Positions 662 to 33,455 of a stretch of DNA of 64,000 nucleotides are shown here, piece after piece. This DNA is from Streptomyces zagrosensis. GTDB lineage: Bacteria; Actinomycetota; Actinomycetes; Streptomycetales; Streptomycetaceae. The notes beneath the pieces were generated by a model that worked only from the letters and a program-made list of their open reading frames with translations, was not told the DNA's origin and made no database searches. The translations under genes were made by a program, and so were the position numbers. The stretch spans positions 1 to 64,000 of the forward strand of contig NZ_JACHJL010000001.1 of the NCBI RefSeq assembly GCF_014203645.1, written 5' to 3'. The first letter of the stretch is position 1; each line of letters opens with the position of its first letter.

Positions 662-894
662 CAAGGTGCAAGCGCCGGCCATCGACGCTCGTACGCGTGC
701 CACACGCCGGATGTGCCAGGCGCGAGTCGCCCACAACTCGACCTCCATAGGCGAATCGGCCCAACCGGGGTGACGATGCCGCCCCTCGCGGCTGTGGGAA
801 GGCCCGGCCAGCGGACCGTGAGTTCGCCGCGGGCCCACTTGCACTCAGCAGCGCCGCCCGATCCCCCGCCCTCGCCGTCGATTACTGTGCCGCC
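662..894. other. Non-coding stretch upstream of the repeat protein
   Basis: Open frames occur on both strands here but none has a convincing start, ribosome binding site or recognisable product. Together with 1-661 this is the junction between inserted DNA and the conserved backbone. The radical-SAM partner usually found upstream of the DUF2344 gene is not in the window. Confidence 0.4.
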
Positions 895-2703
895 ATGGAC
901 GACGACACCACGCGTGCCGTTCGGCCGAGGGGGACGGACGACACCAGCGGGCTGACCACCCGTGACCAGTCGTTCATAGCGCACGCCTCGACAGAACAGC
1001 GGCGACCAACGGACAGGGCCACCACCGCGGCCGAGGCACCCTACGGGCCGGGGGAGGGGTGCCTGACCACGGCGATCCGGCTGCCGGTGCGGATCGTCGT
1101 GCTGGTTGTGGTGGTACCGGTGCGCATGGTGTGGGACATCGTGGTCGGCCTCGGCACGGCACTCAATCGGGCCGTGCTGCGGCCCATCGGTCGCGCCATC
1201 GGATGGTGCTTCCGCACGCTGGTGGTTACGCCGCTGCGGGCCATCGGCAGCGCACTCGGCTGGCTCGGCAGCACCCTGGTGATAGCCCCGCTGTGCTGGC
1301 TCGGCCGCACCCTCGTGGTGGCCCCGCTGAGGTGGCTCTACCGCGCGGTCCTCACCCCCATCGGACACGGCATCGGATGGCTGGCGCGGTGTGTGGGCGC
1401 CGCGGCGTGTGCCACCGGGCGCGGCCTGGTCGTGGTCGTGGCATGGCTGGCGCGGGCGCTGTTCGTCTGGCCGTGGGTGGCGCTGTGGCGGCACGTGCTG
1501 ACGCCCGCCGCCCTTGGCGCCGCGACCGCCGTAATGTGGCTGGCCCGCACGTTGGTCGTGGCGCCGCTGAGATGGACGTACCGCTCGGTGCTCACCCCCA
1601 TCGGACACGGGATCAGGTGGCTGGGGCGCTCGGTGGCCGTGGCCATCGCCACGGGGGCACGCGCCACCGGCTCCGGTGGGCGCTGGTTGCTGCGCCAACT
1701 CGTATCGCGGCCCGCCGGATGGATCTACCGCTCGCTGCTGACCCCGGTGGGGCACGGCGTCAGTTGGTTGGTACGGGCCATCGGCTCCGGCGTGGCCGCC
1801 GTGGGCCGTGGCGGCGTGGCGGCGCTCGGGTGGCTCGGCCGTTACCTCTTCGTCGTGCCGTGCTCCGCCGCCTATCGCTATCTGTTGGCCCCCATCGGGC
1901 ACGGCGCAACCTGGCTGCTGCGCGCCGCCGGCGCTGGGCTCGCCGCCGTGGGCGCCGCGCTGTGGGCGCTGATCACCGGGTTCGTACGCTATGTCTTCCT
2001 CGTGCCGATCGTTGCGGTGTGGCGGTATGTGCTGCGCCCCGTGTGGCTGCTGCTCGCCGGGGCTTGCAAGGTCGGCGTACGCGAGGTCGGTTCGGCCTTC
2101 GGGCACGCCTGGCGGGCAGCCGGATATGTGTCGCGGGCGGTCGGGCGCGGCATGGTGCGGCTGCTGCGTTGGGTGTTCGTCGCGCCCTTCGTCTGGGCCT
2201 GGCACGAGGTGCTGCGCCCGGCGGGCCACGCGCTGCGCGACAACGTCTGGCGCCCGGCGGTACGCGTCGTACGCGACAACATCTGGCGCCCCGCGGCGGG
2301 GGCCGTACGAGAGGCGGGCCGGGCCAGCCGCCAGGCCCTGGCCGCAGCCCGGGAAAGTGCCCGGCAGGCGCGGGCCGATGTGCGGCGAACGCTGTTCGGC
2401 GCGCCCCGGGAAGATGCCGCACGCACGCCTGAGCGGAGTCAGGACCTGGGTCTTGGCGCCCCGGCGGCGGCGATGGGGTGGGAGCCGGCCCCGGTCGGGC
2501 CGCCACTGGCGCCCATGTCGCTGCGGAAGGCCGGCCCCGCGCCGTTGAGCGAGCCCCGCCCCGGGCCCGTAACGCTGGAGAAGGCCCGGCCCGCGCTCCA
2601 GCCGCTGGGGGAGGCCCGCGGCGAACCGGTGCCGGTCGCCGAGCCCCGGCGGGTACCCGAACCACAAGACCCGCGTACCCTGGACACGAGGTTCGTGCGT
2701 TGA
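895..2703 (+). CDS. Repeat-containing hydrophobic protein, function unknown
   Basis: This 602-residue protein is unidentified. After a polar N-terminus (about 1-55) it is built from repeated hydrophobic/amphipathic units ending in a YRxxLTPIGHG-type motif. The motif's first aromatic residue falls at 149, 198, 229, 278, 327 and 376, so the last four units are spaced exactly 49 residues apart. From about 430 the chain becomes Arg/Ala rich and charged (RDNVWRPA, RDNIWRPA), then Pro rich. Trp-Leu-Arg rich helices with few acidic residues suggest membrane association more than classical multi-pass transport. It sits upstream of the DUF2344 gene, a position usually holding a poorly characterised gene in streptomycetes. 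No good ribosome binding site precedes the ATG, so the start is uncertain. Confidence 0.7.
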   Translation: MDDDTTRAVRPRGTDDTSGLTTRDQSFIAHASTEQRRPTDRATTAAEAPYGPGEGCLTTAIRLPVRIVVLVVVVPVRMVWDIVVGLGTALNRAVLRPIGRAIGWCFRTLVVTPLRAIGSALGWLGSTLVIAPLCWLGRTLVVAPLRWLYRAVLTPIGHGIGWLARCVGAAACATGRGLVVVVAWLARALFVWPWVALWRHVLTPAALGAATAVMWLARTLVVAPLRWTYRSVLTPIGHGIRWLGRSVAVAIATGARATGSGGRWLLRQLVSRPAGWIYRSLLTPVGHGVSWLVRAIGSGVAAVGRGGVAALGWLGRYLFVVPCSAAYRYLLAPIGHGATWLLRAAGAGLAAVGAALWALITGFVRYVFLVPIVAVWRYVLRPVWLLLAGACKVGVREVGSAFGHAWRAAGYVSRAVGRGMVRLLRWVFVAPFVWAWHEVLRPAGHALRDNVWRPAVRVVRDNIWRPAAGAVREAGRASRQALAAARESARQARADVRRTLFGAPREDAARTPERSQDLGLGAPAAAMGWEPAPVGPPLAPMSLRKAGPAPLSEPRPGPVTLEKARPALQPLGEARGEPVPVAEPRRVPEPQDPRTLDTRFVR

Positions 2704-26216: not shown

Positions 26217-26289
26217 GGGGCTATAGCTCAGTTGGTAGAGCGCCTGCATGGCATGCAGGAGGTCAGGAGTTCAATTCTCCTTAGCTCCA
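26217..26289 (+). tRNA. tRNA-Ala (anticodon GGC), copy 1
   Basis: A complete 73-base cloverleaf: acceptor GGGGCTA/TAGCTCC with one G-U pair and discriminator A, anticodon stem CCTGC/GCAGG around ATGGCAT (anticodon GGC), and T loop TTCAATT. No CCA is encoded. An identical copy lies at 29937-30009. Confidence 0.97.
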
Positions 26290-26290
26290 C

Positions 26291-29890: not shown

Positions 29891-29936
29891 TAATGTAGGC
29901 GATGCCGCCGAGGGAAACCACGACGGGGAACAATCT

Positions 29937-30009
29937 GGGGCTATAGCTCAGTTGGTAGAGCGCCTGCATGGCATGCAGGAGGTCAGGAGTTCAATTCTCC
30001 TTAGCTCCA
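29937..30009 (+). tRNA. tRNA-Ala (anticodon GGC), copy 2
   Basis: Identical base for base to the copy at 26217-26289. The identity begins exactly at the first tRNA base; the sequences upstream of the two genes are unrelated, while similarity continues past the 3' end into the terminator and beyond. Confidence 0.97.
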
Positions 30010-30011
30010 CA

Positions 30012-30060
30012 AAAGCGAAGGGCGACCTGTGTCCGCGGAAAGCGCGGACCGGGTCGCTTT
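30012..30060 (+). terminator. Terminator after tRNA-Ala copy 2
   Basis: AAAGCGA (30012-30018) pairs with TCGCTTT (30054-30060), and GTCCGCG with CGCGGAC sits inside (30031-30037 and 30043-30049). Loop GAAAG. It is the homologue of the hairpin after copy 1. Confidence 0.75.
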
Positions 30061-30258
30061 CGTCGTTTGCGCTCGGCTCCGCCTCGCTGTGCGGGGGCTT
30101 CGCCACCCGCGGCCCCCTTTTGGGTGCTTTGGGGTGGGGCCGGGTGTGTGGGTGGGGCTTGTGTCCGCGGGAAGCGCGGACGGGGTCGCTTTCGTCGTTT
30201 TTGCTCGGTGTTGCCTCGCTGTGTGGGGGCTTTGCCACCCGCGGCCCCCTTTGGGTGG
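30031..30258. repeat. Tandem duplication of tRNA downstream sequence
   Basis: A segment of about 95 bp starting GTCCGCGG (30031) recurs with few changes from 30163, a period of 132 bp. It includes the inner terminator hairpin, the GCTCGG and GCCTCGCTGTG blocks and GCCACCCGCGGCCCCC. A more diverged version lies after tRNA copy 1 (26312 onward), so three copies occur in the window. The rest of 30259-30400 is GC-rich without a gene. Confidence 0.7.
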
Positions 30259-30406
30259 GGCTGGGGTGTGTTCGTGGGGCGCCTTCGGCTGGGCCCGGCC
30301 TCGGGGCGGGGCCGGGCCCGTGGGCGGGGTGCTGGGTGGGTGGGGCGAGCTGGCGCCTTGGGGCGCGTCCGGGCTGCGCACGATGCGGGGCCTTGGGCCA
30401 CTGCGA

Positions 30407-30412
30407 TAACCT
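30407..30412 (+). promoter_or_regulatory. -10 element of leuS leader transcript
   Basis: TAACCT lies six bases before the leader peptide ATG. The transcript would start at or next to the A of that ATG, so the leader peptide is translated from a leaderless mRNA. Confidence 0.5.
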
Positions 30413-30418
30413 GTCCCC

Positions 30419-30457
30419 ATGCGTGCCGTACGCCTTCTGCTTAGCGAGCCGCGCTGA
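30419..30457 (+). CDS. leuS leader peptide
   Basis: A 12-residue frame, MRAVRLLLSEPR, contains three consecutive leucine codons (CTT CTG CTT), including CTT codons that are uncommon in such GC-rich genomes. It ends at TGA 30455. Directly downstream are alternative hairpins and a U-tailed terminator, then leuS. When charged tRNA-Leu is scarce, a ribosome stalling on these codons would alter RNA folding and allow read-through into leuS. Ribosome-mediated attenuation of amino acid genes is described in actinobacteria; the mechanism here is inferred from arrangement. Confidence 0.75.
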   Translation: MRAVRLLLSEPR

Positions 30458-30463
30458 TCAGTA

Positions 30464-30530
30464 CCGACCGATGTGAAATCCGGTCGGCATCGGCGCGGCG
30501 TCCCCTCCTGTGCGAGGGGATTTTTCGTTT
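30464..30530 (+). promoter_or_regulatory. leuS transcription attenuator
   Basis: First hairpin: CCGACCG (30464-30470) with CGGTCGG (30481-30487). An alternative pairing is available, CCGATG (30468-30473) with CATCGG (30488-30493). The terminator is TCCCCTC (30501-30507) with GAGGGGA (30514-30520), loop CTGTGC, followed by TTTTTCGTTT. It is one of the few U-tailed intrinsic terminators in the window and lies 46 bp before leuS. Confidence 0.8.
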
Positions 30531-30575
30531 CCGTACGTACCCGCTGGCAGAGACGATCGATGGAGCTAGAAGACG

Positions 30576-33455
30576 ATGAGCGAGACCCACACCGCTGCCG
30601 AGGTGGCCGCACCGCACCGATACACGGCCGCGCTGGCCGCTGACATCGAGGCACGCTGGCAGGACTTCTGGGACGAGCACGGTACGTACGAGGCGCCCAA
30701 CCCCACCGGAGACCTGACCGAGGGCGAGGGCGGCGCCGGGCTGGCGCAGCGGCCCAAGAAGTTCGTCATGGACATGTTCCCGTACCCGTCCGGGGCGGGG
30801 CTGCACGTCGGCCATCCGCTGGGCTTCATCGCCACCGACGTCTACGCCCGATTCCACCGTATGACCGGCCACAATGTGCTGCACACGCTGGGCTTCGACG
30901 CGTTCGGGCTGCCCGCCGAGCAGTACGCGGTGCAGACGGGCACGCACCCCCGGGCCTCCACCGAGGCCAATATCGCGAACATGCGGCGCCAATTGCGTCG
31001 GCTGGGCCTGGGCCACGACAAGCGCCGGTCGGTCGAGACGATCGACCCGGCGTACTACAAGTGGACCCAGTGGATCTTCGTCCAGATCTTCAACTCCTGG
31101 TACGACCCGGAGGCCCGCAAGGCTCGCCCGATCGACACGCTGGTTGCGCAGTTCGAGGCGGGGGAGCGTGCCACTCCCGACGGGCGCCCCTGGAACGCTC
31201 TGAGTGCCGTCGAGCGCGCGGGCGTGCTGGGTGAGTACCGTCTAGCGTACGCATCGGACGCGCCGGTCAACTGGTGTCCGGGCCTGGGCACGGTGTTGGC
31301 CAATGAGGAGGTCACCGCCGAGGGGCGCTCGGAGCGCGGCAACTACCCGGTCTTCAAGGCCAAGCTGCGGCAGTGGAACATGCGCATCACCACCTACGCG
31401 GACCGGCTGATCGAGGACCTGGACGGCCTGGACTGGCCCGAGGCCATCAAGTTGCAGCAGCGCAACTGGATCGGCCGCAGTGAGGGCGCCCGGGTTGACT
31501 TTCCCGTAGCGGCTGACGGCGACGCAAAGATCACGGTCTTCACCACGCGGCAGGACACGCTGTTCGGCGCGACGTACATGGTGCTGGCTCCGGAACACGA
31601 GCTAGTAGAGCGGATCGTTCCGGCAGCCTGGCCCGAGGGCACGCACGACGTGTGGACCGGCGGTTACGCGACGCCAACCGAGGCCGTCGCCGCGTACCGT
31701 AAGCAGGCTGCCGCGAAGTCCGACGTGGAGCGGCAGGCCGAGGCCAAGGACAAGACCGGCGTGTTCACCGGCGCGTACGCCACCAACCCGGTCAGCGGCG
31801 AGCAGGTCCCCGTCTTTATCGCCGACTACGTCCTGATGGGCTACGGCACCGGCGCGATCATGGCTGTGCCGGCGCACGACAGCCGTGACTTTGCCTTCGC
31901 GCGCGCCTTCGAGCTGCCGATGCGCTGCGTCGTCGAGCCGAGCGACGGCCGCAGCAGTGACCCCAGCACCTGGGATGATTCCTTCGACTCGTATGAAGCG
32001 AAGATCATCAACTCGTCGGGTGCCGGTGTCGCGCTGGACGGGCTGGTCGTGACGGACGCCAAGGCGAAGATCACCGAGTGGCTGGCGAAGCGCGGGATCG
32101 GGGAGGGGACGGTCAACTTCCGGTTGCGTGACTGGCTGTTCAGCCGCCAGCGTTACTGGGGCGAGCCGTTCCCGATCGTCTACGACGAGGACGGCGTGGC
32201 CCACGCGCTGCCCGAGTCGATGCTGCCGCTGGAGCTGCCCGAGGTCGAGGACTACTCCCCGCGCACCTTCGACCCGGACGACGCCGACACCTCGCCGGAG
32301 ACCCCGCTGTCCCGCAACGAGGACTGGGTCAACGTCAAGTTGGACCTGGGCGATGGCCCGAAGCAGTACCGGCGCGAGACCAACACCATGCCCAACTGGG
32401 CTGGTTCGTGCTGGTACGAGCTGCGCTACCTGGACCCGCACAACAGCGACCGGCTGGTTGACCCAGCTGTCGAGCAGTATTGGATGGGCCCGCGCGAGGG
32501 CCAGCCGTCCGGCGGCGTGGACCTGTACGTCGGCGGCCAAGAGCACGCCGTGCTGCACCTGCTGTACGCGCGGTTCTGGTCCAAGGTGCTGCACGACCTG
32601 GGGCATATCGCCTCTTCGGAGCCGTTCCACAAGCTGTTCAACCAGGGCATGATTCAGGCGTACGTCTACCGCGACAGCCGGCGCATCGCGGTGCCGGCCA
32701 CCGAGGTGGAGGAGCGCGACGGCGCCTACTACTACCAGGGCCAGCAGGTCAGCCGAGTGCTGGGCAAGATGGGCAAATCGCTGAAGAACGCGGTCACGCC
32801 GGACGAGATCTGCGCCGAGTACGGGGCCGACACGCTGCGCCTGTACGAGATGGCCATGGGCCCGCTGGATGTGTCCCGGCCGTGGGACACGCGGGCGGTG
32901 ATCGGTCAGTACCGGTTGCTGCAACGGCTGTGGCGCAACGTCGTGAGTGAGACGACGGGTGAGGTCTCGGTCGTGGACGCGGAGCCGGACGAGGCGACCC
33001 TGCGGGCGTTGCACAAGGCCATCGACGGCCTCTCGCAGGACCTGGCCCACATGCGATTCAACACCGCCGTCGCCAAGTTGACCGAGCTGAACAACCACCT
33101 CACCAAGGTGCGCGAGGTACCACGTACGGTGGCCGAATCGCTGGTGCTGCTGACCGCGCCGCTGGCCCCGCACATCGCTGAGGAACTGTGGCGCATGTTG
33201 GGCCATGAGACCTCGGTCGTGCACGCGCCGTTCCCCGTCGCGGACCCGGCGTATGTCCAGGACGAGGCCGTGACCTGTGTCGTCCAGCTCAAGGGCAAGG
33301 TCAAGGCGCGACTGGAGGTGCCTCCGACGATCTCGGACGAGGAGCTGGAGCGGTTGGCGCTGGCCGACCCCGCGGTGGTCGCCGCGCTGGGTGACGCGGG
33401 CATCCGCAAGGTGATCGTGCGGGCGCCGAAGCTGGTGAACATCGTCCCGGCGTGA
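30576..33455 (+). CDS. leuS: Leucine--tRNA ligase
   Basis: A class I synthetase of 959 residues charging tRNA-Leu. The Rossmann fold shows [16 protein letters not shown] with HVGH at 77-80, and the second signature is KMGKS at 731-735. The CP1 editing domain lies between them (about 250-450; [37 protein letters not shown]). The anticodon-binding helical domain and C-terminal LeuRS-specific domain follow. GGAG lies ten bases before ATG 30576. Expression is controlled by the upstream leader peptide and terminator. A terminator follows about 100 bp after the stop. Confidence 0.97.

Follow-up and report, generated by a model that had tools for sequence, protein, structure and literature searches.

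In Streptomyces zagrosensis, leuS encodes a leucine-tRNA ligase of 959 amino acids (TIGR00396, 889.6 bits with a cut-off of 548.4) and occupies positions 30576-33455 on the forward strand of the window, i.e. the whole stretch of 64,000 nucleotides that was analysed; its ATG is at 30576. Upstream on the same strand lies a leader ORF of 12 codons followed by a stop codon (30419-30457; ATG CGT GCC GTA CGC CTT CTG CTT AGC GAG CCG CGC TGA), which codes for MRAVRLLLSEPR, has the conserved design described below and is identical to a published leader peptide. Its codons 6-8, CTT CTG CTT (30434-30442), are three consecutive leucine codons. The leader ATG is preceded by a -10 element of the TAnnnT type, TAACCT (30407-30412), with a gap of 6 nt. 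Behind the Leu run, folding predicts a hairpin, here called H, whose 5' arm GCCGCGCTGAT (30448-30458) includes the leader stop codon and whose 3' arm ATCGGCGCGGC (30489-30499) is also backed by compensatory changes at two pairs in an alignment of 22 sequences. H adjoins an intrinsic terminator (30500-30525) with an 8-bp stem (arms 30500-30507 and 30514-30521), a 6-nt loop and a T run (30521-30525) that ends 50 bp from the leuS start; H and the terminator lie on the forward strand as well. The -10 element, the leader with its three Leu codons and the U-tailed terminator were thus confirmed at the positions given by the original prediction, which had been made from the letters of the window.

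As a check for chance, the 1133 ATGs on both strands of the window were examined: seven had TAnnnT at a gap of 6 nt, and the single ORF of 6-25 codons among these seven was the leuS leader with its LLL. The fold of 30419-30528 had an energy of -52.0 kcal/mol, compared with a mean of -39.85 in shuffled sequences (z -3.74), and none of 200 shuffles equalled it. A 221-bp query covering the locus found a single place in the 8.7-Mb genome, and so did the hairpin model R1 introduced below. A sigma-70 scan of 29900-30700 returned no promoter-like site and therefore no consensus -35. With the Rfam covariance models at gathering score, the whole window gave two tRNAs only, and no T-box, riboswitch or leader RNA. 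As a separate observation, the motif TGCG(G/A) at 30402-30406, immediately 5' of TAnnnT, was nearly invariant in 81 sequences (by position: T and G 100%, C 96%, G 96%, G 98%).

PMC8079986 describes leuL2 of S. lividans TK24 as MRAVRLLLSEPR, located before leuS, leaderless according to 5'-end RNA-seq and followed by a hairpin and a uridine stretch. Since the identical peptide has been published in S. lividans, the element, although real, is already known and not a new discovery; peptide, gene, leaderless start, hairpin and uridines are the same, and we found no difference between our locus and leuL2-leuS as far as it is described there. The same source gives TAnnnT as the -10 element, with a mean distance of 6.3 nt to the start site, and classifies 17% of the transcripts as leaderless. 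As TAnnnT lies 6 nt from the leader ATG here and the start has been mapped in S. lividans, we infer a leaderless start in S. zagrosensis itself. In the second relevant study (PMC1262725, 2005), classical leuS attenuators were predicted for S. avermitilis and S. coelicolor, both with a leader ORF, an antiterminator hairpin and a terminator hairpin before leuS, as in our case. That prediction concerned two Streptomyces, whereas our comparison covers many other families too and found no strand-sharing antiterminator. The section on cis-regulatory elements in PMC8079986 contains no analysis of the geometry of H and terminator. It is in the breadth of the distribution and in the constant spacing that the present work goes beyond the accessible text of these two studies (PMC8079986, PMC1262725). 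The find is ordinary in itself, and its geometry is mildly interesting. Attenuation of aminoacyl-tRNA synthetase operons was reportedly treated by Lopatovskaya in 2010, and a wider spread may already be reported there.

The leader is highly conserved in the Streptomycetaceae. In a leuS scan of genome contigs, all of the best 80 of 586 loci (L002-L081; 79 Streptomyces and one Actinacidiphila) had an LLL leader and TAnnnT before leuS, with a gap of 6 nt in 78 cases and of 7 nt in two. A DNA search with 30400-30530 matched in 125 of 150 family genomes. When 40 of the matching places were picked by hand, the Leu leader and TAnnnT were present in 39 of them (L112, L115 and L140 included), and the remaining one, L150, had the Leu leader without TAnnnT. 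The leader was also present at the leuS loci of all 23 further family genomes inspected, 20 of which came from the 25 genomes without a DNA match. We pooled 158 leader loci, in which TAnnnT stood 6 nt from the start codon in 143 and 7 nt in 15; these loci had been chosen for TAnnnT at a gap of 4-9 or 5-7 nt, two genomes (G008 and G023) are present twice, and others may overlap. By a T-run rule, a terminator lay between leader and gene in 116 of 117 loci, L147 being the exception.

To compare the geometry, 157 of the 158 loci were anchored on the terminator; L229 was left out, its terminator being outside the pattern, and both hairpins are visible in its fold. In every one of the 157 loci, the 5' arm of H starts 7 nt upstream of the stop codon. 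All 11 pairs of H are possible in 134 loci, 10 in 17, nine in five and eight in one. With up to 4 nt allowed, H and the CCC of the terminator were separated by 2 nt in 135 loci, 1 nt in 13, 3 nt in eight and 0 nt in one, so their distance stays within 0-3 nt while the loop of H varies from 8 to 100 nt. The third Leu codon has its first base 8 nt upstream of H in 157 of 157 loci, so the distance between the Leu run and H is fixed; it is unchanged even in the 15 loci whose ORF has one codon less ahead of the Leu run. Among 29 distinct pairs of H arms, 93.4% of the positions pair; with shuffled 3' arms the value was 90.1% (500 shuffles, maximum 91.8%). In the alignment of 22 sequences, 99.4% of the H cells pair, and 41-58% do so when the partner is slid. 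The number of H pairs changed on both sides in these 22 sequences did not exceed that in shuffles, of which 106 of 500 had at least as many; the covariation score of H did, with 2 of 500 shuffles attaining it.

As their third Leu codon, 154 of the 157 loci use CTT and three use CTC. CTT accounts for 24 of the 673 Leu codons counted in 13 long window ORFs with high GC3, which were loosely chosen and may contain wrong frames, and for none of the 77 Leu codons of leuS. A rare CTT at the last sensing position would fit a sensitive detector; alternatively, its conservation may have a structural reason.

We then folded the 157 sequences at 30 °C, either free or with a ribosome mask at the first, second or third Leu codon or at the stop codon, placing the front edge of the ribosome at an assumed distance of 13 nt from the start of the A-site codon. 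At least one H pair had a probability of at least 0.5 in 154 sequences when the RNA was free, in 156 with the ribosome at the first and in 156 at the second Leu codon, in 99 at the third and in none at the stop codon. The mean pair probability of H was, in the same order, 0.95, 0.97, 0.78, 0.31 and 0.00. The terminator formed in 156, 157, 157, 156 and 152 of the 157 sequences, respectively. In this model, H is the sole one of the two hairpins that depends on the ribosome. The terminator is predicted in every ribosome state, and thermodynamic folding alone therefore shows no switch. The original prediction had spoken of competing hairpins that make up a full attenuator. A ribosome-dependent hairpin is indeed predicted, but H and the terminator share no strand and co-exist in the minimum-energy fold, and the full attenuator could not be upheld in the proposed form, the terminator being predicted in all states and its 5' arm never being held upstream with the ribosome at the first or second Leu codon. 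The hairpins should therefore be called abutting instead of competing.

Two further pairings were considered and discarded after inspection by eye. Base pairing between the Leu codons and GCAGA close to the ribosome binding site of leuS occurs in many Streptomyces and is not preserved in most other genera inspected. A hairpin within the leader, GCGUGCCGUACGC, is not preserved where the leader is GCGTGCCGTACTG, and this stretch was therefore taken as coding.

We consider it likely that the locus is a ribosome-mediated, leucine-sensing transcription attenuator of leuS with H as the antiterminator. The RNA would start at or next to the leader ATG, as mapped for the S. lividans orthologue, and the ribosome would therefore load without a Shine-Dalgarno sequence. 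With charged tRNA-Leu, it would arrive at the stop codon inside the 5' arm of H and block this hairpin, so that the terminator forms and leuS stays untranscribed. With uncharged tRNA-Leu, it would stall at Leu codons 6-8 and leave the 5' arm wholly or partly free, and H would form right against the terminator. Intact H, only 0-3 nt away, may then prevent closure of the terminator hairpin at the polymerase, which would read through into leuS. Antitermination by H is thus probably steric; H was assigned the role of a blocker of the abutting terminator because this reading gives sensible regulation. The design of the leader very probably raises the output of leucyl-tRNA synthetase under leucine shortage. 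Attenuation is supported by the conservation of the Leu run, of the leaderless geometry and of the position before leuS across families, by the constant placement of H and its preserved pairs, and by the folding with ribosome masks. The central claim of the original prediction, that leuS has a leucine attenuator whose leader peptide is leaderless, is backed by conservation together with the 5'-end mapping in S. lividans reported in PMC8079986. Besides the missing switch in thermodynamic folding, the count of doubly changed H pairs and the weak upstream pairing of the terminator 5' arm described below, further results count against attenuation: H is mostly masked when the ribosome occupies the third Leu codon, a leader is missing at 19 of 34 leuS loci from other families, and changes of leader codons in S. 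coelicolor, as described in PMC1262725, had no effect for ilvB and gave results at odds with classical attenuation for leuA. The locus has the codon run and the intrinsic terminator; in the folding model, it also has an alternative hairpin that depends on the ribosome, and it lacks a strand-sharing antiterminator.

Such an antiterminator, sharing a strand with the terminator, would make this a case of classical attenuation. The description of "antiterminator and terminator hairpins" at leuS of two Streptomyces in PMC1262725 speaks for it, and kinetic and tertiary effects escape minimum-energy models. However, when the masked transcripts were cut before the 3' arm of the terminator, the 5' arm was paired upstream in four of the 157 sequences for free RNA, in 0/157 with the ribosome at the first or second Leu codon, in 3/157 at the third and in 46 at the stop codon. 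This weak upstream pairing thus occurs mainly in the leucine-rich state, which argues against the classical scheme, and the consensus fold of the 22 sequences consists of H and the terminator alone. We therefore regard strand sharing as improbable. As the antiterminator is lacking in a folding model only, this lowers the probability of the classical form and not that of a locus working like an attenuator.

H could also be mainly a pause hairpin that holds the polymerase inside the terminator until the ribosome arrives, so that timing decides. Pausing hairpins are known from leader regions, and a pattern of G at -10, a pyrimidine at -1 and G at +1, which we take to be the pause consensus, follows H at 10-12 nt in 131 of 157 loci (a raw count). 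It is absent in the other 26, though, and a pause alone combined with an always-forming terminator would give no induction; this reading seems unlikely, if slightly less so than strand sharing. It is very improbable that the leader peptide and the terminator merely fix a constant, leucine-independent level of leuS. A literature search found no functional test of a leuS leader, most subscription journals being outside its coverage, and the ineffective codon changes in the ilvB leader of S. coelicolor (PMC1262725) would fit a constant level; yet the Leu run, its distance to H and the place before leuS are kept across families, and the sequence of the spacer is not.

The leader and its hairpins can be followed beyond the family. 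Of 34 leuS loci outside the family, 14 of them returned by a LeuS search and 20 picked from its list, 15 had such a leader, for example MRGLLLLIGPR, MRTGLLLTGPR and MAGVFLLLTEPC. For a wider survey we built R1, a covariance model of H and the terminator, from the 22 sequences. With E ≤ 0.01 and strict filters, the E-values being rough, R1 matched in 183 of 394 genomes of the class and in 79 of 137 genera, with the own genus contributing 40 of the matching genomes, the own genome included; the model is blind to some altered terminators, e.g. in L213, L217 and L223. In 45 of the 48 genomes outside the own genus for which both R1 and LeuS positions were listed, the match lay directly upstream of leuS on the same strand, as compared by eye. 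The exceptions were G181, with a match before a LeuS fragment on another contig (L264), G271, with a match at a contig end and the leader MNVRQLLPGPR, and G187. In the last genome, the match precedes ilvB, encoding acetolactate synthase (L282:179-2064; NF005860, 1095.3 bits vs 881); the leader there is rich in Val, Ile and Leu codons and has no TAnnnT, and H abuts the terminator.

Another 20 stretches were picked by hand; two of these, L279 and L280, were taken from the same end of a single contig. All except L276 and L280, i.e. 18 of the 20, had a short ORF with Leu codons and with TAnnnT 6 or 7 nt ahead of it, and 17 of the 20 encode a relative of LeuS. By their identity to the window LeuS, these 17 form two groups, with 62-69% (five proteins) and 35-39% (12 proteins). 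Two diverged leuS genes occur together in G341 (L262 and L263; 39% and 68% identity to the window LeuS), each with its own leaderless-type leader and abutting hairpins. In L267, the leader MKHLLLIESARH and an H that abuts the terminator stand in front of leuA, encoding 2-isopropylmalate synthase (703-2358, minus strand; NF002086, 717.4 bits vs 532). Judged from sequence, a leader with abutting hairpins before leuS is widespread in the class, with single cases at leuA and ilvB.

Enterobacterial trp, his and leu attenuators combine a leader that has a Shine-Dalgarno sequence with an antiterminator that uses one strand of the terminator. The leuS leader resembles them in the codon run in the leader ORF and in that the position of the ribosome would decide between termination and read-through, and differs in its abutting hairpins and leaderless start. 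In the E. coli S10 operon, a hairpin upstream of the terminator is reportedly required for attenuation by L4; there too a hairpin beside the terminator would take part in control, as here, but the sensor is protein L4 and not a leader peptide. Actinobacterial leuA has the LEU element, which likewise comprises a leader peptide with a Leu run; unlike the leuS leader, it is, according to PMC1262725, a pseudoknot located at the ribosome binding site of leuA and shows no obvious terminator. We tentatively suggest, holding it possible but with the balance somewhat against it, that a variant of attenuation without a strand-sharing antiterminator acts in much of the class on leuS, for both of the strongly diverged types of LeuS, and in isolated cases on leuA and ilvB. 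In this variant, a hairpin that holds or adjoins the stop codon would abut the terminator and sterically prevent its formation at the RNA exit channel, and the leaderless start would remove the untranslated state. If the comparative part holds, attenuation of leuS is widely conserved in the class, and the constant spacing of H and terminator offers a clean test of an abutting versus an overlapping hairpin as antiterminator.

Two minor features were seen upstream of the leuS leader in S. zagrosensis. Two tRNA-Ala (GGC) genes with equal Rfam scores lie 3.7 kb apart on the forward strand (26217-26290 and 29937-30010), and between the second of them and the leader there is a tandem repeat with 1.8 copies of a 132-bp unit (30028-30268; 86% matches).
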